A stretch of DNA of 40,226 nt, from the NCBI GenBank assembly GCA_012514535.1, contig JAAZAA010000083.1, positions 1-40,226 of the forward strand, in the 5' to 3' direction. The position numbers were made by a program, and so were the translations under genes. The stretch is from Myxococcales bacterium. Lineage in GTDB: Bacteria > Myxococcota_A > Polyangia > Polyangiales > Polyangiaceae. The notes beneath the pieces were generated by a model. The model was not told the origin of the DNA. It searched no databases and worked only from the letters and a program-made list of their open reading frames with translations. Numbering within the stretch: the first letter of the stretch is position 1; each line of letters starts with the position of its first letter. Positions 22,641 to 31,671 of this stretch are shown piece by piece.

Positions 22641-24059
22641 ATGCCAACGGGAGACGCACTGGTCGTCGGGCTGTTGATCGCCGTGAACGCGCTCTACGTC
22701 GCCGCAGAGTTCGCCGCGGTGGCGGTCCAGAAGAGCCAGCTCCTCCCCCTCGCCAAGAGCGGCAGCAAGCGCGCTGAGGGCCTTCTCGCCCTGCAGGAAA
22801 ATCGCGTCGAGCTCGATCGCTACATCGCCGCCTGCCAGATCGGCATCACCCTCTCGAGCCTGGTCGTCGGAGCCTATGGGCAGGCGCGGATCGCCCCTGG
22901 GCTCGGCGTTTGGCTCGAGCAGGAGCTCGGCTGGAGCGCCGTCTCGGCGGGATCGGCCGCCATCACCCTGGTGCTGCTCGTCCTGACCCTGTCGCAGGTC
23001 GTCCTGGGCGAGCTGGTGCCGAAGTCCCTCGCCCTGCAGTTCCCCGAGCGCACCGCCCTCGCGACCTACGTGCCGACGCGTTGGTCCGTCTCGCTCTATC
23101 GCGGCTTCATCTGGCTGCTCAACGGGAGCGGCCTCGTCTTGCTGAGGCCGTTCGGGGTGAAGCCGGGAGGCACCCAACACGTCCACTCACTCGCGGAGAT
23201 CCGCATCTTGCTCGCGGAGTCCCACAAGGCGGGCTCATTGACGCCCGCGGCGCACAAACGCCTGGAGCGCGGGCTCCAGCTGTCCAACCGCACCGTGCGC
23301 CAGATGATGACGCCCCGGAACGAGATCTACGCCCTCGAGGTCTCCACGCCCGCGGACGAGGCTCTTCGGAAGCTCCTCGAGAGCCCCTACAGCAGGGTGC
23401 TCATCTACAGGGAGTCCCTCGATCAGGTGCTCGGCGCAGTGAACACCAAGGACGTCGTGAGCTGGTTCGCCGTGCGCGGAGAGCTGCCGCCCCTCGAGCG
23501 AATGCTCCGCAAGATGCCCTTCGTCCCCGAGTACCTCCGGGCGCCTCGGCTGGTGCGCTTCCTCCAGGAGAAGCAGAGCTCGAAGGCGATCGTCGTCGAC
23601 GAGTTCGGCGGCGTCCAAGGCATCATCAGCATCGAGGACGTGCTCGGACAGCTGTTCGGGGACATCGGCGACGAGCTGAAGCAGCCCGAGCCAGGCGTGG
23701 AGCGGCTCGAAGACGGGAGGGTGCGGCTGCCCGGATCCCTGACGCTGGACGAGGCGGAGCCTTGGATCGGGGCGCGCTGGGAGGGGAGCTCCGCGACCGT
23801 CGGTGGGCACATCCTGGCTCACCTCGGGCGCTGGCCGACCGAAGGCGAGACCCTGGAGATCGACGGGGTCGACGTCACGGTGACGGAGATGAGCCCCACC
23901 GCGGTCCGATGGGTCGTCGCGCGCCCCCGCCACGGCGCCTCGGAGCCGGGGTCCTCCGAGGAAGCGGAAGGAGCCGAGCACCCGGAGGCGCCTCCGCTCG
24001 AAGCCAGCGCTGCGCAGGCGAGGTCGTCCGAAGGGGCGCGGACGCGGGAGGAAGACTGA
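22641..24059 (+). CDS. CNNM/CBS-domain membrane protein (HlyC/CorC family), first copy
   Basis: A 472-residue protein with the CNNM (DUF21) membrane domain at about 1-180 ([53 protein letters not shown]). A CBS pair follows (about 200-350; [38 protein letters not shown]) and then a CorC/HlyC C-terminal domain. The final 50 residues are Glu/Ala-rich and disordered. Members act in Mg2+ or Co2+ export or regulation; older hemolysin labels are misleading. TAAGGAT at 22625-22631 may be a -10 element close to the start. The next gene is a paralog that starts two bases after this stop. Confidence 0.9.
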
Positions 24060-24061
24060 CC

Positions 24062-25387
24062 ATGATCGTCGCCCTCGTCGTCCTCGTGCTGATCCTCCTC
24101 AACGGCCTCTTCGTCGCCGCCGAGTTCGCGATCATCGGCGTCCCCCGGCCGGCCATCGAGCACCGCGCCGCGGAGGGGAGCCGCCTCGCCCGCGTCGTGC
24201 TGAGCACCCTGCGCGACCCGCAGAAGCAGGATCGCTACATCGCGACGGCGCAGCTCGGCATCACCTTCTCGAGCTTGGGGCTCGGCATGTACGGGGAGCA
24301 GCAGCTCGCCCAGAGCCTGCTGGAGCCACTCGGTCGGCTCGGCATCGACTCCTGGGTCTCCGTGCACGCCGTGGCCAGCGTGCTCGCCGTGAGCGCCCTC
24401 ACCTACCTGCACATCGTGTTGGGTGAGATGATCCCCAAGACCCTCGCGCTGCAGCACGCAGAAGCGACGGTGCTCTGGATCAGCACGCCGATGCGCTGGT
24501 TCAAGATCGCGCTGTGGCCCCTCGTGGTCGCCCTGAACGCGACGGGCATCGGGATCTTGCGCCTGCTGGGAGTGCGCCGCCAAGCGGCGGACACCACGCC
24601 GAGCCCGGAGACCCTCCGCTTCGTCGTGGAAGACAGCGTGGCCAACGGCGAGATCGACGCGGAGGCGGGACAGGTCCTCGGCGAGCTGTTCGAGTTCGGT
24701 GAGCTCACCGCGGCCGAGGTCATGACGCCGCGGGTGCGCGTGGTGGGTGTGCGCCGGGACGCCTCGCTCGCCGAGCTCCGGGGAGCCATCCGCAGCGGCA
24801 GGCACGCGCGTTACCCGGTCTACGACGGGACGCTCGATCAGATCGTCGGCATCGTGCTCATCCGGGATCTGCTCCGTCTCCTCGTCGAAGGACGCTCGCT
24901 CTCCGGAGACGTCATCCGCCCCGTCCCCTTCGTGCCGGAGACCTCCAAGCTGGACGCAGTGCTCGCGCGGATGCGTCGGGAGAAGACGCAGCTCGTCGTC
25001 GTGATGGACGAACACGGCGGCACTTCCGGTATCGTCACCGTCGAAGATCTCTTCGAGGAGATCGTCGGCGAGATCTCCGATGGCACCGCCACCGTCCAAC
25101 CCGTCTTCGAAGCGGACGACGAGCTGTGCGCCCTCGGCATGGCGCGGCTCCAGCAGGTGGGCGAGCAGCTCGGCGTCGATCTCGAGCACCCGGACGTCGA
25201 CACGGTGAGCGGCCTCGTCCTCATGCTGCTCGATCGCCCCCCGGCCGTCGGAGATCGAGTGTCCTTTCGCGGCGTGACCTTCACCGTGCGCGCCACCCAG
25301 GGGCGTGGCGTCCGCGAATGTGCGCTCACGATCGATCCCGACGTCGTGAGGCCGCCCACCAGCTCGAACCGCCCGCCACAAGCCTGA
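24062..25387 (+). CDS. CNNM/CBS-domain membrane protein (HlyC/CorC family), second copy
   Basis: A 441-residue paralog of the preceding protein. The CNNM domain shows [39 protein letters not shown] and [13 protein letters not shown]. The CBS pair shows [20 protein letters not shown] and [20 protein letters not shown]. The CorC/HlyC C-terminal domain follows (about 340-430). The ATG comes two bases after the previous stop, so the two are surely one operon and may form a heteromer. Its end is 83 bases upstream of the first NrdR box. Confidence 0.9.
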
Positions 25388-25470
25388 TCCCGGGGCCGCG
25401 CGCCGGCGCGCGCTCCGACCCGCGGGCCGCTGCTGCTCGTCTGCGCCGCGGACGGAAGCGCACCTCACCC

Positions 25471-25512
25471 CAACATATTGGTTGACGAGATCGGGTCGAG
25501 CCCAATATCTTG
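25471..25512 (+). promoter_or_regulatory. Pair of NrdR boxes upstream of nrdAB
   Basis: Box 1, CAACATATTG (25471-25480), and box 2, CAATATCTTG (25503-25512), each match 9 of 10 positions of the NrdR core CAATATATTG. Their starts are 32 bases apart, about three helical turns, as expected for the cooperative NrdR pair. They flank and overlap the promoter. NrdR represses ribonucleotide reductase genes when dATP/ATP is bound. The nrdR gene is not in this window. Confidence 0.8.
25482..25511 (+). promoter_or_regulatory. Probable nrdAB promoter
   Basis: TTGACG begins at 25482 within the end of the first NrdR box region, followed by an 18-base spacer and TATCTT (25506-25511) inside box 2. Transcription would start just ahead of the cobalamin riboswitch. 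The operator overlap fits repression by NrdR. Confidence 0.5.
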
Positions 25513-25523
25513 CGTGTCGCTTC

Positions 25524-25708
25524 CGGTGCCTGAGCGGGTGCTCAGGCGAAGGGAATCCGGTGTGACTCCGGAGCTGCCCCGCAGCGGTCAGTGAGAACGA
25601 CCCTCGCACGAACGCACTGGCACAGGCCCTCGAGACCTGTGCTGGGAAGCAGCGAGCAGTAGGAACGCGGTTCTTCCGCAACGCTCACGAGCCCGAAGAC
25701 CTGCCGAA
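25524..25708 (+). ncRNA. Cobalamin (B12) riboswitch in the nrdAB leader
   Basis: The leader holds the conserved cobalamin-riboswitch core in order: GGTGCC, then GCGAAGGGAATCCGGTG, then ACTCCGGAGCTGCC and the B12 box CTGCCCCGCAGCGGT (around 25573-25587). Peripheral stems follow (CACAGG/CCTGTG), then GGGAAG and the closing GAGCCCGAAGACCTGCC. B12 binding should lower nrdAB expression. Such control is known for class I reductases in bacteria that also have the B12-dependent class II enzyme. Confidence 0.92.
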
Positions 25709-25711
25709 AGC

Positions 25712-25751
25712 CCGAGGGAACCCCAAATCCCCCTCGGTTTCCGATCCGAGG
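25712..25751 (+). promoter_or_regulatory. Mutually exclusive hairpins downstream of the riboswitch
   Basis: CCCTCGG (25731-25737) can pair with CCGAGGG (25712-25718) upstream or with CCGAGG (25746-25751) downstream, but not both. The first hairpin is followed by TTT and could be a weak terminator; the second would prevent it. A further hairpin, CACGACG/CGTCGTG, lies at 25780-25799. The rest of the leader to 25963 shows no gene. Confidence 0.5.
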
Positions 25752-25963
25752 CTTCCGCGGGGGAGCAGGCGGGCTCACGCACGACGACTCGACGTCGTGA
25801 TGCGGCGCCGTTCCGTTCCCGCGCAGAGACCTCTTCGTCCGCGGGGACGAGGTCGGTGACGTCACGGCGACTCGTGCGACCCCTCATGGAGGATCCGTCG
25901 AGCCGTGACGGAGCCGCCCCGTGCTCGCACACCCACTCGGGATCCACCAGCGAGGAGACAGGG

Positions 25964-28390
25964 ATGGAATCGATGACGGTACGGCAGCGTCGCTCGAGCG
26001 ACGCCCCTACGCAGATGCGTGTTCGTAAACGCAACGGCGCCTACGAGCCCGTGCGGCTCGACAAGATCGTGAGCGCCGTCGGGCGGTGTTGCGCCGGACT
26101 TCCACGGGTCGACGCCCTGGAGGTCGCCACGAAGACGATCTCCGGCCTCTACGACGGCGCCAGCACGCGGGAGCTCGACGAGCTGTCGATCCAGACGGCG
26201 GCGGCGCTCACGGCGCGGGAGCCGGAGTATGCCCAGCTCGCCGCGCGCCTGCTCTCGGCGACGATCGACGAGGAGCTGCGCGGGCAAGGCATCCACACCT
26301 TCACCCAATCCGTCGCTCGCGGCTACGACCTCGGGCTCATTGGAGAGCGCCTCCAGGCCTTCTGCGCGCAGCACGGGCGCCAGCTCGACGACGCCATCGA
26401 CCCGGCGGCGACGCAGCGCTTCGAGTACTTCGGGCTGCGCACCCTCCACGACCGCTACCTGCTGCGCCACCCCACCCAGCGCACCCTGCTGGAGTCGCCG
26501 CAGCACTTCTTCATGCGCATCGCCGCCGCCCTGGCGGACTCCGTCGCGGACGCCATCGAGTTGTACGGGCTCTTCTCCCGGCTCGAGTACCTGCCGAGCT
26601 CACCCACCTTGTTCAACGCCGGGACGCGGCACGAGCAGCTCAGCAGCTGTTTTCTGCTCGACTCACCCGCCGACCACCTGAAGGACATCTACGCGCGCTA
26701 CGCGGACATCGCGATGCTCTCGAAGTTCTCGGGGGGCATCGGGCTCGCCTACCATCGCGTGCGCTCACGGGGCTCCCTCATCGAGAGCACCAACGGACAC
26801 AGCAACGGCATCGTGCCGTGGCTCAAGACCCTCGACGCCTCCGTGGCGGCCGTGAACCAAGGCGGCAAGCGCAAGGGCGCCTGCTGTGTGTACCTCGAGA
26901 CGTGGCACGCGGACATCGAGGAGTTCCTCGAGCTGCGGGACAACACCGGCGACGAGGCGCGTCGCACCCACAACCTGAACCTCGCCAACTGGATCCCGGA
27001 TCTGTTCATGCGGCGCGTGGAGCGCGGTGAGCAGTGGTCCTTGTTCGATCCCAAGGTGGTACCGGAGCTGACGGACCTGTGGGGTGAGGACTTCGAGGCC
27101 GCCTACGAGGCCGCCGAGGAGCGCGGGGTGGCCGCCAAGGTCCTCCCCGCGCGCGAGCTGTACGGCCGCATGATGCGCACCTTGGCCCAGACCGGGAACG
27201 GGTGGATGACGTTCAAGGACACGGCCAACCGCACCTGCAACCAGACGGCGCGCCCCGGGCGTGTCGTGCACCTCTCGAATCTCTGCACCGAGATCATCGA
27301 GGTGACCTCCGACGAAGAGACCGCCGTCTGCAACCTCGGCTCGATCAACCTCGCGCGCCACCTCCGGGAGCCCGCCCCATCGAGCGGCGCGGAGTCCGGC
27401 GCCGAGGTGCGCGAGGCTTCCGATGTGCACGGGGCTTCCGATGTGCAAGGGGCCTTCGACTGGGACCACCTCGCGGCGACCGTGCGCGTCGCGGTGCGCC
27501 AGCTCGATCGGGTCATCGATCTGAACCTGTACCCCATCGAGTCCGCGCGGCGCTCCAATGCGCGGTGGCGCCCGGTGGGCCTCGGCATGATGGGTCTGCA
27601 GGACGTGTTCTTTCGGCTGCGGCTGCCCTTCGACGCGCCGGAGGCGCGCGCCCTCTCGCGGCGCATCTCCGAGCACATCTACTTCCACGCCCTGAGCGCG
27701 TCCGTGGAGCTCGCCGTCGAGCGCGGTCGTCATCCGGCCTTCGAGGAGACCCGCGCCGCCCGCGGCGAGCTCCAGTTCGACGCCTGGGGCATCACGCCCA
27801 GCCGAGAGCTCGACTGGGAAGGGCTGCGGGCCCGGATCCAACGGGACGGTCTCCGCAACTCCCTCCTCGTCGCCATCGCCCCGACCGCCACCATCGCGTC
27901 GATCGCCGGGTGTTACGAGTGCATCGAGCCCCAGATCTCGAACCTGTTCAAGCGCGAGACGCTCTCGGGGGAGTTCCTGCAGGTGAATCGCTATCTGGTT
28001 CGGGAGCTCCAGGCCCTGGGGATGTGGAACGACGGGGTGCGACAACGCCTCAAGCTCGCGGAGGGCTCGGTCCAACCTCTGGAGGAGCTCCCTGCGTCCC
28101 TGAAGCTCCTGTTCCGGACCGCCTGGGAGCTGCCCATGCGCGCCCTCATCGACATGGCTGCGGAGCGCGGCCCGTTCATCGATCAGAGCCAGTCCCTGAA
28201 CCTGTTCATGGAGAGCCCGAACATCGGCCAGCTCTCGTCCATGTACATGCACGCCTGGCGGCGGGGCCTGAAGACCACCTACTACCTGCGCTCGCGCCCG
28301 GCGACGCGCATCGCTCAGGTCACGGCGTCACCGACGCGCTCCGTCACCTGCTCCCTCGAGAACCCCGAATCCTGTGAGGCCTGCCAATGA
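25964..28390 (+). CDS. nrdA: Class I ribonucleotide reductase, large (alpha) subunit
   Basis: NrdA reduces ribonucleoside diphosphates to deoxyribonucleotides. The ATG at 25964 follows GAGGAG (25952-25957); an earlier in-frame codon lacks such a site. The 808-residue product has an N-terminal ATP cone (MRVRKRNGAYEPVRLDKIV), active-site Cys229 (SSCFLLDS), Asn439-Cys441-Glu443 in NLCTEI with the partner Cys456 in AVCNLGSIN, and the Tyr-Tyr pair near the end (LKTTYYLRSRP). The C-terminal shuttle cysteines are in ESCEACQ. Between LARHLREP and DWDHL is an insertion of about 30 residues encoded by an 18-base repeat. The stop overlaps the nrdB start (ATGA). The promoter carries NrdR boxes and a B12 riboswitch. 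Confidence 0.95.
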   Translation: MESMTVRQRRSSDAPTQMRVRKRNGAYEPVRLDKIVSAVGRCCAGLPRVDALEVATKTISGLYDGASTRELDELSIQTAAALTAREPEYAQLAARLLSATIDEELRGQGIHTFTQSVARGYDLGLIGERLQAFCAQHGRQLDDAIDPAATQRFEYFGLRTLHDRYLLRHPTQRTLLESPQHFFMRIAAALADSVADAIELYGLFSRLEYLPSSPTLFNAGTRHEQLSSCFLLDSPADHLKDIYARYADIAMLSKFSGGIGLAYHRVRSRGSLIESTNGHSNGIVPWLKTLDASVAAVNQGGKRKGACCVYLETWHADIEEFLELRDNTGDEARRTHNLNLANWIPDLFMRRVERGEQWSLFDPKVVPELTDLWGEDFEAAYEAAEERGVAAKVLPARELYGRMMRTLAQTGNGWMTFKDTANRTCNQTARPGRVVHLSNLCTEIIEVTSDEETAVCNLGSINLARHLREPAPSSGAESGAEVREASDVHGASDVQGAFDWDHLAATVRVAVRQLDRVIDLNLYPIESARRSNARWRPVGLGMMGLQDVFFRLRLPFDAPEARALSRRISEHIYFHALSASVELAVERGRHPAFEETRAARGELQFDAWGITPSRELDWEGLRARIQRDGLRNSLLVAIAPTATIASIAGCYECIEPQISNLFKRETLSGEFLQVNRYLVRELQALGMWNDGVRQRLKLAEGSVQPLEELPASLKLLFRTAWELPMRALIDMAAERGPFIDQSQSLNLFMESPNIGQLSSMYMHAWRRGLKTTYYLRSRPATRIAQVTASPTRSVTCSLENPESCEACQ
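27415..27450 (+). repeat. Two tandem 18-base units inside nrdA
   Basis: GGCTTCCGATGTGCACGG (27415-27432) is followed directly by a copy differing at one base (27433-27450), and by the partial copy GGCCTTCGA. They encode the EASDVHGASDVQGAFD part of an insertion. The repeat is in frame, so slippage would keep the reading frame. Confidence 0.85.
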
Positions 28391-29448
28391 GCTCTCTCGC
28401 ACTCCTATCGACGCCCGCCGTGATCCCCACGTCTCCGCCTCCGGGAGCGCCCCTGCTCCAGCCTGGCTTGCAGCTCACGCTGCGCCCCATGCGCTATCCG
28501 CGCTTCTTCGAGATGTACCGGGCGGCGATCAAGAACACGTGGACCGTCGAAGAGGTGGACTTCTCCACGGACCTCGGAGACCTGCGCGAGCGCATGAGCC
28601 CGGCCGACCGCCACCTGATCGAGCGGCTCGTGGCGTTTTTCGCGACGGGCGACTCGATCGTCGCCAACAACCTCGTGCTCAACCTCTATCGGCACATCAA
28701 CGCGCCCGAGGCTCGGCTCTATCTCTCCCGGCAGCTGTACGAGGAGGCGCTGCACGTCCAGTTCTACCTCACGCTGCTCGACACCTACGTGCCCAAGCTC
28801 GAGGATCGCGAGGCGGCCTTCGCGGCCATCGACAACATCCCCAGCATCCGGAAGAAGGCGGAGTTCTGCTTTCGTTGGATGGACTCGATCCAAGACCTGG
28901 AGCGGCTCGAGACGAGGGCGGAGCGCCGCGCCTTCGTGCTCAACCTGATCTGCTTCGCCGCGTGCATCGAAGGGTTGTTCTTCTTCGCGGCATTCGCCTA
29001 CGTCTATTTCTTGCGTTCCCGTGGCCTGCTGCACGGCCTCGCCGCGGGCACCAACTGGGTGTTCCGCGACGAGAGCGCTCACATGGCCTTCGCCTTCGAG
29101 GTCGTCCACACCGTGCGGCGCGAGGAGCCCGAGCTGTTCGACGCCGAACTCGAAGGCCTGGTCGTCCAGATGCTCGAGGAGGCCATCGACTGCGAGCTCC
29201 AGTTCGCTGCGGACCTCCTGAGCGGCGGGATCGCTGGCCTGTCGCTCGCGGACATGCGGCGGTACCTCGAGTTCGTCGCGGACCAGCGCCTGACCCAGCT
29301 GGACCTGCCGCGACGCTTCCACGGCACCAACCCGTTCTCGTTCATGGAGCTCCAGGACGTGCAGGAGCTGGCGAATTTCTTCGAGCGCCGCGTCAGCGCG
29401 TACCAGGTCGGCGTCTCCGGCGACGTGGAGTTCGACGCGGACTTCTGA
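28387..29448 (+). CDS. nrdB: Class I ribonucleotide reductase, small (beta) subunit
   Basis: NrdB holds the metal centre and radical that start catalysis in NrdA. The 353-residue product overlaps nrdA by four bases. Metal ligands can be placed: Asp89 (TGDSIVANN), Glu120 and His123 (YEEALHVQFY), Glu195 (CIEGLFFF), Glu229 and His232 (RDESAH). Tyr127 occupies the position of the radical tyrosine (Tyr122 of E. coli). The Asp ligand and Tyr point to an ordinary diiron-tyrosyl (class Ia-type) enzyme. The surrounding sequence nevertheless resembles the chlamydial class Ic group, which has Glu and Phe at those two places. The C-terminus (GDVEFDADF) should dock on NrdA. A strong terminator follows. 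Confidence 0.94.
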   Translation: MSSLALLSTPAVIPTSPPPGAPLLQPGLQLTLRPMRYPRFFEMYRAAIKNTWTVEEVDFSTDLGDLRERMSPADRHLIERLVAFFATGDSIVANNLVLNLYRHINAPEARLYLSRQLYEEALHVQFYLTLLDTYVPKLEDREAAFAAIDNIPSIRKKAEFCFRWMDSIQDLERLETRAERRAFVLNLICFAACIEGLFFFAAFAYVYFLRSRGLLHGLAAGTNWVFRDESAHMAFAFEVVHTVRREEPELFDAELEGLVVQMLEEAIDCELQFAADLLSGGIAGLSLADMRRYLEFVADQRLTQLDLPRRFHGTNPFSFMELQDVQELANFFERRVSAYQVGVSGDVEFDADF

Positions 29449-29459
29449 GCGAACCGCCC

Positions 29460-29487
29460 CCGACGAGCCCCCCTCAGGGCTCGTCGG
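29460..29487. terminator. Bidirectional terminator between nrdB and the convergent lipoprotein gene
   Basis: CCGACGAGCCC-CCCTCA-GGGCTCGTCGG is a perfect 11-bp stem with a six-base loop, starting 12 bases after the nrdB stop. The stop codon of the minus-strand lipoprotein gene lies in the loop. No T tract on either side. Confidence 0.65.
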
Positions 29488-30637
29488 ACCCGTAGAGGGC
29501 GCAGTCCGTCGTGTCCGTGCCCTCGTCGCACACAGGCGGCATGTCGCACTCCCCGTCGAAGGCGAACTCGCAGCTGTCCTCCAAGGCCTGGTCCCCGACG
29601 CAGAAGGCCCAGGTGAAACCGTTCGCCTCGGTCGCCTCGCAGCGGGCGAAGCCGAACTCGGCGCAGTCCACCTCGCTCGGTGAGCCGCCGACGCAGAACT
29701 GGAGGCGGGTCCCGTTGCAGCCTTCACTGCACCCCGCGACGTCGTCGACGCTGCAGCTCGGCGCGACGCACTCCGCGTAGTCGCCGGACGTCTCACAGCG
29801 CAGCCCTGCCGCGGCGCAATCGATCGCGCTGAGTATCCCCGTCTCACCGCAGTAGCTGAGGACGTCGTTTCTGCACGTGAGCGTGCCCGGCGAGGTGCAC
29901 TGGGTGGTGGAGTCGATGCACATCGCCTCCCCGGGCCCGGTTTCGACACAAGTGCTCGCCAGGCCGGTGCAATCGACCCCGTAGGGCTGGCCCCCGATGC
30001 ACTCGTACAGAACGTTCCCCGCACAATGGTACTCGCCGGGGGCGTCGTAGCAGGTGTCCGTCGCAAGCAGACAAGGCGCCGTCGGGCCCTGGGTCGGGAA
30101 GTCGTAGGAGCCATAGCATCCGATCGCCCCAGCGCGCCCGCAGTCCCACGCGTAGGGGAACGGGACGCCACACAGGACCGCCTCGTCCCCGGAACAGCTC
30201 CACCCGCTCGTGCCGCCGCAGCTCGCGGGGGTGATGGCTCGACGACCGAGGCACTCCTCCACGTCTCCGCAGCTGCTCGCTCCGTAGGTGCACGCCTCGT
30301 AGGCGTTCGTGAGCTGATAGCTGTAGCTGACGCACTGGCTCATCGTGTAGTAGGCCCCCGCGGGATCGCAGGAGACGCGCATCAGGCATCCCCGGACGAG
30401 CTCGTCGTTCCCTACGTCGTAGGCGGAGCAGGTTCCACCATCGCCGCCGCCACTGTGGGACCCACCGCCGCCGTTCGTGCCTCCGGTGCTGGAGGAGCCG
30501 CCGCTCGCCAGAGGATCGAGCTCCGCCTTTTCGATGCCGAGGAGCTGATTGCAGGCGATGCCCAGGCAAGCAGGAGCGAGCACGCAGAGCCACCAGGCCG
30601 CTTCGCCGCCCCGTCGTCGTGTGATCCGTCGCGTCAT
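29474..30637 (-). CDS. Cys-rich lipoprotein (locus B)
   Basis: A 387-residue lipoprotein. The N-terminus MTRRITRRRGGEAAWWLCVL is followed by lipobox GIAC and by NQLLGIEKAELD. A Gly/Ser linker follows (GGSSSTGGTNGGGGSHSGGG). The mature part contains about 35 cysteines in repeating units such as CIGGQPYGVDCTGLASTC, CVETGPGEAMC and CRNDVLSYCGETG. This repeating pattern suggests many small disulfide-linked modules. The start ATG overlaps the stop of the TPR-PEGA gene (TGATG), so the two are coupled. The arrangement repeats locus A at 10-13 kb. Function unknown; surface exposure is likely. Confidence 0.78.
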   Translation of the reverse strand: MTRRITRRRGGEAAWWLCVLAPACLGIACNQLLGIEKAELDPLASGGSSSTGGTNGGGGSHSGGGDGGTCSAYDVGNDELVRGCLMRVSCDPAGAYYTMSQCVSYSYQLTNAYEACTYGASSCGDVEECLGRRAITPASCGGTSGWSCSGDEAVLCGVPFPYAWDCGRAGAIGCYGSYDFPTQGPTAPCLLATDTCYDAPGEYHCAGNVLYECIGGQPYGVDCTGLASTCVETGPGEAMCIDSTTQCTSPGTLTCRNDVLSYCGETGILSAIDCAAAGLRCETSGDYAECVAPSCSVDDVAGCSEGCNGTRLQFCVGGSPSEVDCAEFGFARCEATEANGFTWAFCVGDQALEDSCEFAFDGECDMPPVCDEGTDTTDCALYGSDEP

Positions 30638-31671
30638 CAGAACGTCCCCCGGAGCAGCAGGCTCGCGCCCTCGCCCGTCGTCACGGCGCTCAGCTCGGGT
30701 CCCCCCGACTCCGGCGCGGTCACCCACAGGACGATCCCGGTCGCGACCAGCGCCCCACCAACTCCGCCGAGGATCGTCGCCCAGTTCCCGGCGGCGCGAG
30801 CGTCGTTGCGCAGCTCGACGCCCGCCTGCGAGCAGAAGCGCTCGGTGCGGCACTCGTCCTGGGAGCTCGAGTTCAATGAGATCGCGCGCAAACCGAAGAT
30901 CCCTCCGGCAATCAGGCCCGCCGCGCCCACGGAGCCGACGACGACGCCGATGGTGCGCCGGGTCGCGCCGGGATCCGACGTCGCGTCGTCACCGACGCCG
31001 CGTGCCGGCGTGTCGACGGCGAGGACGTTCGTCTCGGGCTCGCTCTCCGCGAGGGGCGGGATCACGATCTCCGTGTGTCCCGGCCCTGGCTCGATGGACA
31101 CGATCGTCCGGTACGTCTCCCTGCCGGGCGCGGTGACCTCGATCGTGTGCTCCCCGGGATCCAGCGGGAGCGGTGTTCCCCAGGCCGCCTGCCGCACCTC
31201 GACCCCGTCTCGCGCCACTCGCAGGCCCTCGACGTAGGTCGTCTCGGGCACGGTGATGACCACCCGATGCAGCTGGCGCTCGACCTCCTCGGCACGCATG
31301 CGTGCGTGGGTCTCACGCTCCTCCTGCCCTGCCTGACGCGCCAGGGCGGCAGCCTCCAGCCAGATCCCCCAAGCCGTGGCCAGCCGTCCCTGTTTTTCGT
31401 AGCAGTCGGCGAGGTTCAGGGCGGTGCCCGTCCCCGGATCGAGACGTTGGCTCTCCGCGAGTTTGGGGCACGCCTCGTCGTAGCGCCCTTCCGTCAGGAG
31501 CTGACGCCCCTCCGCGAAGAGCGCCTCGGCGACGGCGACGTCCCTCGCCTCCGCGGCGAGCGTCACCGGGGAGACCAGCAAGAACCCCGAAGTGAAAAAG
31601 AATGCACACCAGGGAAACCGCGCTGCCCCGGCAACTCGACGGCGCCAGGGGAATAATCGACATGAAAACAC
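30637..31671 (-). CDS. TPR-PEGA domain protein (locus B)
   Basis: A 344-residue envelope protein. The GTG at 31671, behind AGAGG, is preferred; a TTG at 31740 would add 23 residues and lies in an inverted repeat. After an Arg-rich N-region and the signal segment CAFFFTSGFLLVSPVTLAA come TPR-like helices (AEALFAEGRQLLTEGRYDEA; ALNLADCYEKQGRLATAWGI). A PEGA-like domain follows (VVITVPETTYVEGLRVARDG... LDPGEHTIEVTAPGRETYRT), then two hydrophobic segments (TIGVVVGSVGAAGLIAGGIF; GGVGGALVATGIVLWV). The C-terminus ends RGTF. Domain order and the -GTF end match the protein at 10068-11090. It lies between a Ser/Thr kinase gene and the Cys-rich lipoprotein gene on the same strand. Confidence 0.75.
   Translation of the reverse strand: MFSCRLFPWRRRVAGAARFPWCAFFFTSGFLLVSPVTLAAEARDVAVAEALFAEGRQLLTEGRYDEACPKLAESQRLDPGTGTALNLADCYEKQGRLATAWGIWLEAAALARQAGQEERETHARMRAEEVERQLHRVVITVPETTYVEGLRVARDGVEVRQAAWGTPLPLDPGEHTIEVTAPGRETYRTIVSIEPGPGHTEIVIPPLAESEPETNVLAVDTPARGVGDDATSDPGATRRTIGVVVGSVGAAGLIAGGIFGLRAISLNSSSQDECRTERFCSQAGVELRNDARAAGNWATILGGVGGALVATGIVLWVTAPESGGPELSAVTTGEGASLLLRGTF

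Follow-up and report, generated by a model that had tools for sequence, protein, structure and literature searches.

The nrdAB operon described here lies in a 40,226-nucleotide stretch of DNA from a Myxococcales bacterium (the whole stretch is called the window here), and the genome also encodes the B12-dependent ribonucleotide reductase NrdJ. This raises the question of which signals decide when the oxygen-dependent class I enzyme is made. Judged from the features collected in Table 1, the locus is very probably an nrdAB operon of class Ia under double control, with NrdR acting at the promoter, a B12 riboswitch acting in the leader, and NrdJ preferred when B12 is present.

Table 1. Features of the nrdAB control region and operon (positions in the window).
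Feature	Positions	Strand	Basis
NrdR box 1, 16-mer CCCCAACATATTGGTT	25468–25483	+	11/16 to ACACWATATATWGTGT; core CAACATATTG at 25471–25480
NrdR box 2, GCCCAATATCTTGCGT	25500–25515	+	12/16 to ACACWATATATWGTGT; core CAATATCTTG at 25503–25512
Promoter-like TTGACG – 18 nt – TATCTT	25482–25511	+	only match in 25400–26000, 0.0 expected; −35 at 25482–25487, −10 at 25506–25511
Cobalamin riboswitch aptamer RF00174	25507–25722	+	89.4 bits vs. 31.5 cut-off, E = 5.5e-21
L5 cytidines, CCCC in GCTGCCCCGCA	25577–25580	+	sequence
B12 box AGCCCGAAGACCTGCCG	25690–25706	+	sequence; inside the RF00174 covariance-model match
P13a hairpin GCTTCC-GCGG-GGGAGC, usual L13 type	25751–25766	+	GNGG loop, covarying stem, conserved offset
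P13b hairpin CTTCGTCC-GCGG-GGACGAGG, second, L13-like	25833–25852	+	in 30/47 nrdA leaders, with GGTC[GA] after it
nrdA Shine–Dalgarno GAGGAG	25952–25957	+	sequence; ATG at 25964
nrdA, class I ribonucleotide reductase large subunit	25964–28390	+	domains ATP-cone, lgN, lgC
nrdB, class Ia-type small subunit	28387–29448	+	4-bp overlap with nrdA

Both genes of the operon follow 3′ of the region that holds the boxes, the promoter and the aptamer, as a sequence-only reading of the same DNA had claimed when it placed a class I nrdAB under both elements. The three domains of NrdA and a tyrosine at the radical position of NrdB (alignment with human p53R2) assign the enzyme to class Ia. The assembly measures 5.77 Mb in 442 contigs and is 98.8% complete; the family to which the genome belongs includes the soil bacterium Polyangium. 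The genome encodes a single NrdA (class I) and a single NrdJ (class II), the latter on contig C25, and no class III NrdD could be recognised. An nrdR gene sits on contig C22, flanked by fabF and ribD. Its product is a true NrdR (TIGR00244, 193 bits against a cut-off of 124.65), so that the forecast of nrdJ and nrdR elsewhere in the genome was borne out. This NrdR has D15 and R17, the specificity residues of Streptomyces coelicolor NrdR (PMC9110341). Just one further B12 riboswitch occurs in the genome, in front of a gene with a weak match to BtuB-type receptors. Searches of this draft assembly revealed a cobalamin adenosyltransferase but neither CobS nor CbiC, which suggests, from two absent families in a draft genome, a dependence on imported B12. 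On the 5′ side, an open reading frame at 22910–25387 ends just before the nrdA promoter region; its C-terminal half is CNNM/CBS/CorC_HlyC, and its N-terminal 390 residues have no Pfam match. After nrdB, two long frames on opposite strands overlap (30026–31237 and 29474–30853). The former has no family match in Pfam or NCBIfam, and the latter has none in NCBIfam.

At the promoter, the two NrdR cores each match CWATATWTWG at nine of ten positions by eye, and they are spaced 32 bp apart over the TTGACG/TATCTT promoter; this part of the sequence-only reading was found as described. For scoring the full boxes we used the palindrome ACACWATATATWGTGT, which we take to be the NrdR consensus. The pair reached 23 of 32, a score attained by 0 of 100 dinucleotide-preserving shuffles of the surrounding 360 bases (shuffle maximum 17). 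It is the sole such pair within the window, its listing on the reverse strand being the same palindromic pair. Box 1 touches the −35 element and box 2 covers the −10 element. Two boxes 31–33 bp apart over the promoter of an nrd operon, together with an nrdR gene in the genome, mark the locus as a candidate member of the NrdR regulon. A spacing of 32 bp has been given for tandem NrdR sites (PMC4428469), and NrdR holds two boxes approximately three helical turns apart (PMC9110341).

The aptamer match covers all 189 model positions and lies 58 bits above the threshold, and cobalamin is the single Rfam family matched in the whole 40-kb window. The B12 box is in place, and L5 is complementary to the loop of a downstream L13 hairpin. 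The claim of an aptamer with its B12 box in the leader thus stood. Its placement directly ahead of nrdA needs refining: the nrdA ATG lies 241 nt beyond the end of the match. On the other side, the first model positions overlap box 2 and the −10 element, and the 5′ strand of P1 runs from about position 25520. A transcript starting approximately 7 nt past the −10 element would open with the beginning of the aptamer.

These features suggest the following sequence of events. With ample dNTPs, NrdR carrying dATP and ATP would bind both boxes, cover the −35 and −10 elements and turn the promoter off. A transcript starting near 25518 would fold the cobalamin aptamer at once. When adenosylcobalamin is bound, L5 would kiss the downstream L13 hairpin and nrdAB would go down, leaving dNTP synthesis to the B12-dependent NrdJ. 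When imported B12 is short, the leader would open and nrdAB would take over. From the conserved elements we infer NrdR binding, ligand binding and the OFF sign; a response of expression to B12 or NrdR, and a role for the class I enzyme as the reserve when B12 is short, would follow from the same model.

To see how the riboswitch is distributed, we turned to related genomes. In the order, 107 of 116 genomes encode NrdJ and 30 encode NrdA, which marks NrdJ as its default enzyme. A sample of the phylum comprised 380 genomes with a completeness of at least 85%, with NrdA in 63; the nrdA leaders were retrieved and scanned with Rfam, and 60 genomes had a readable leader. NrdJ was called from the E-value gap between NrdJ and NrdA cross-matches, G093 being scored positive from a fragment, and the count tables were compiled by hand. 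A riboswitch precedes nrdA in 38 of the 60 genomes, and 37 of these 38 have NrdJ. The exception, G095, has a completeness of 88% and is split into 1380 contigs. The remaining 22 genomes have no riboswitch before nrdA, and 12 of them have NrdJ. The association gives a Fisher p of 7e-5 by genome, uncorrected for phylogeny, and 22:1 versus 8:9 (p = 7e-4) by genus, where kinship is handled only by the collapsing of genera. The riboswitch on nrdA is thus widespread in Myxococcota and usually absent where nrdJ is absent. It is not obligatory, since the 12 nrdJ-bearing genomes do without it. The L5 string and the 3′ end of the aptamer were missing from the riboswitch-less leaders in a pattern search, with the exception of one L5-like match (L143), so missed detection of aptamers is unlikely.

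The contrast is also seen within a genus. The congener G112 has NrdJ and a riboswitch at nrdA; the congener G113, 97% complete, has neither. In G113 box 1 is the identical 16-mer and box 2 is slightly changed, and a riboswitch is still present before a BtuB-like gene. Its alignment with the window continues for approximately 22 bases beyond box 2, into the start of the aptamer, with a score of 22 that is within chance (shuffle maximum 30); an aptamer remnant is only suggested. G388, which belongs to the same family as the window genome and measures 13.6 Mb, has two nrdA copies, one with a riboswitch and one without (leaders L120 and L121), and its genus mate G376 has a riboswitch-less copy only (L126). 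In the nrdA leader of G036 (L032) a piece with GTGCCCCGCAGCGG resembles the aptamer in its 5′ half, but the 3′ half and the B12 box are missing; it looks like a decaying riboswitch. The leader on contig C159 of G364, again of the same family, is that of NZ_SSMQ01000062.1 from Polyangium fumosum.

The riboswitch leaders, 47 in number (two pairs are the same organism from two collections), were compared with the window. The L5 string CTGCCCCGCA[GA]CGGT is present in 47/47. A box pair reached by at most 1 in 100 shuffles occurs in 32 of the 47; among the nrdA leaders without a riboswitch, 17 of 24 have one. Most other leaders that have TTGAC share the box and promoter arrangement of the window. 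The best box 2 ends 5–11 bases past the start of the aptamer model in 35/47, and this recurring offset indicates that boxes, promoter and aptamer form one unit. A scan of named genomes showed the order of boxes followed by aptamer in further leaders as well, two from Acidobacteriota records and three from Actinomycetota records.

Past the aptamer, many leaders have a hairpin with a C-GNGG-G loop after approximately 32 nt (P13a). In other B12 riboswitches the L5 cytidines pair with L13, as established by mutation (PMC11260477; PMC10653944). The P13a loop is complementary to L5, the known partner of L13, and P13a is therefore the ordinary L13 hairpin. Approximately 80–90 nt further on comes P13b, whose loop is complementary to the same L5 cytidines; the 30 nrdA leaders that have it, followed by GGTC[GA], are all from Myxococcota. 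Both stems covary with pairing kept, for example P13a at its second pair (TA or CG) and P13b at its second and third pairs (CG or TA). Shuffles predict 0.04 strict L13-type hairpins per leader; at least one is found in 39/47 leaders and at least two in 15/47. As a control we took 20 other riboswitches of the order and the btuB one of this genome. Both hairpins were found in one metE leader (L159, genome G114), the first hairpin only in another metE leader, and a single match in three others; the rest had none. The metE leader rules out a two-hairpin platform specific to nrdA, although most of the other non-nrdA riboswitches sampled lack it. Two successive hairpins with GNGGG loops complementary to L5 are thus found in 30 nrdA leaders and one metE leader, all preceding B12-independent isozymes in Myxococcota. 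We also considered a separate second riboswitch class past the aptamer and rejected it, as no other Rfam family appeared in the relatives even at E 0.05 and the first conserved downstream hairpin turned out to be L13.

No intrinsic terminator was found in the leader, which makes translational or Rho-dependent control the probable output step. Folding of the leader was ambiguous and gave no clear sequestration of the Shine–Dalgarno sequence or the start codon. Pairing of the 5′ arm of P13b with the AUG, with a probability of approximately 0.36 in the fold, was set aside as inconsistent across relatives by eye. A more tentative thought, which we would sooner doubt than adopt, is that P13a and P13b compete for their one kissing partner, L5, and so might make a three-state or graded switch in place of a two-state one.

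The same elements could serve a different economy. NrdAB might be the everyday aerobic enzyme and NrdJ the enzyme for oxygen-limited growth, with a real riboswitch through which B12 only trims NrdAB. Class II reductases are active irrespective of oxygen, and this, together with the failure to find NrdD in the genome, fits such a division of labour. The distribution of the genes speaks against it: within the order nrdJ is far commoner than nrdA, and nrdJ-less genomes generally carry no riboswitch on nrdA, so we hold this arrangement to be possible but rather unlikely. It would be very surprising if the aptamer were a relic that no longer switches and NrdR the sole control of nrdAB. Leaders with NrdR boxes and no riboswitch do exist, and the seemingly truncated remnant in G036 indicates that decay happens; in the window, however, the core elements are kept at a score far above threshold, with L5, the B12 box, P13a and P13b all intact.

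We give hardly any credence to the opposite sign, in which B12 would turn nrdAB on in the manner of an activating cobT riboswitch. Activating corrinoid riboswitches with the same L5–L13 kissing loop are known (PMC10653944), and the ambiguous fold of the leader leaves room for either sign. Activation by B12 would nevertheless be illogical for a B12-independent enzyme that stands beside NrdJ. The reported nrdAB cases repress or terminate (PMC3848588; PMC3293853), and the two-hairpin platform recurs at metE of G114, which likewise encodes a B12-independent enzyme. Repression of nrdAB by B12, with NrdR at the promoter, is thus the reading that we carry forward.

Systems of this kind are already known. 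The Streptomyces nrdABS operon has a B12 riboswitch (PMC3293853, citing Borovok 2006), and NrdR boxes of the Streptomyces nrdAB promoter have been used in binding assays (PMC9110341). The present operon resembles S. coelicolor nrdABS in its class Ia nrdAB, in two promoter NrdR boxes separated by approximately three helical turns and in a B12 riboswitch 5′ of nrdA with nrdJ elsewhere in the genome. It differs in that nrdR lies with fabF and ribD, whereas in Streptomyces it is in an operon with nrdJ, in that no nrdS-like gene was recognised 3′ of the operon, and in the second L13-like hairpin of its leader. The nrdAB operon of Cutibacterium (Propionibacterium) acnes combines an NrdR box with a cobalamin riboswitch, and RNA-seq shows a transcription stop before the gene (PMC3848588). 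The box at the promoter, the riboswitch in the 5′ UTR and the presence of nrdJ are shared; the pair of boxes here contrasts with a single box there, and nrdDG is under a riboswitch in C. acnes, whereas no class III enzyme was found here. As in the RF00174 family at large, the window has a full aptamer, B12 box, L5 cytidines and an L13-type hairpin; unlike the family norm, it shares with many Myxococcota nrdA leaders a second such hairpin approximately 80–90 nt on. No prior description in Myxococcota was found in the open-licence literature. What is new is the lineage, the natural co-loss and the second conserved hairpin.

The finding extends control of nrdAB by NrdR and a B12 riboswitch from Actinomycetota to Myxococcota; in two Acidobacteriota records, too, nrdA is preceded by both elements. 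The twin L13-like hairpins offer a concrete point for the study of riboswitch mechanics. The contrast between G112 and G113 is a natural experiment on whether the riboswitch serves to pass dNTP synthesis on to NrdJ.
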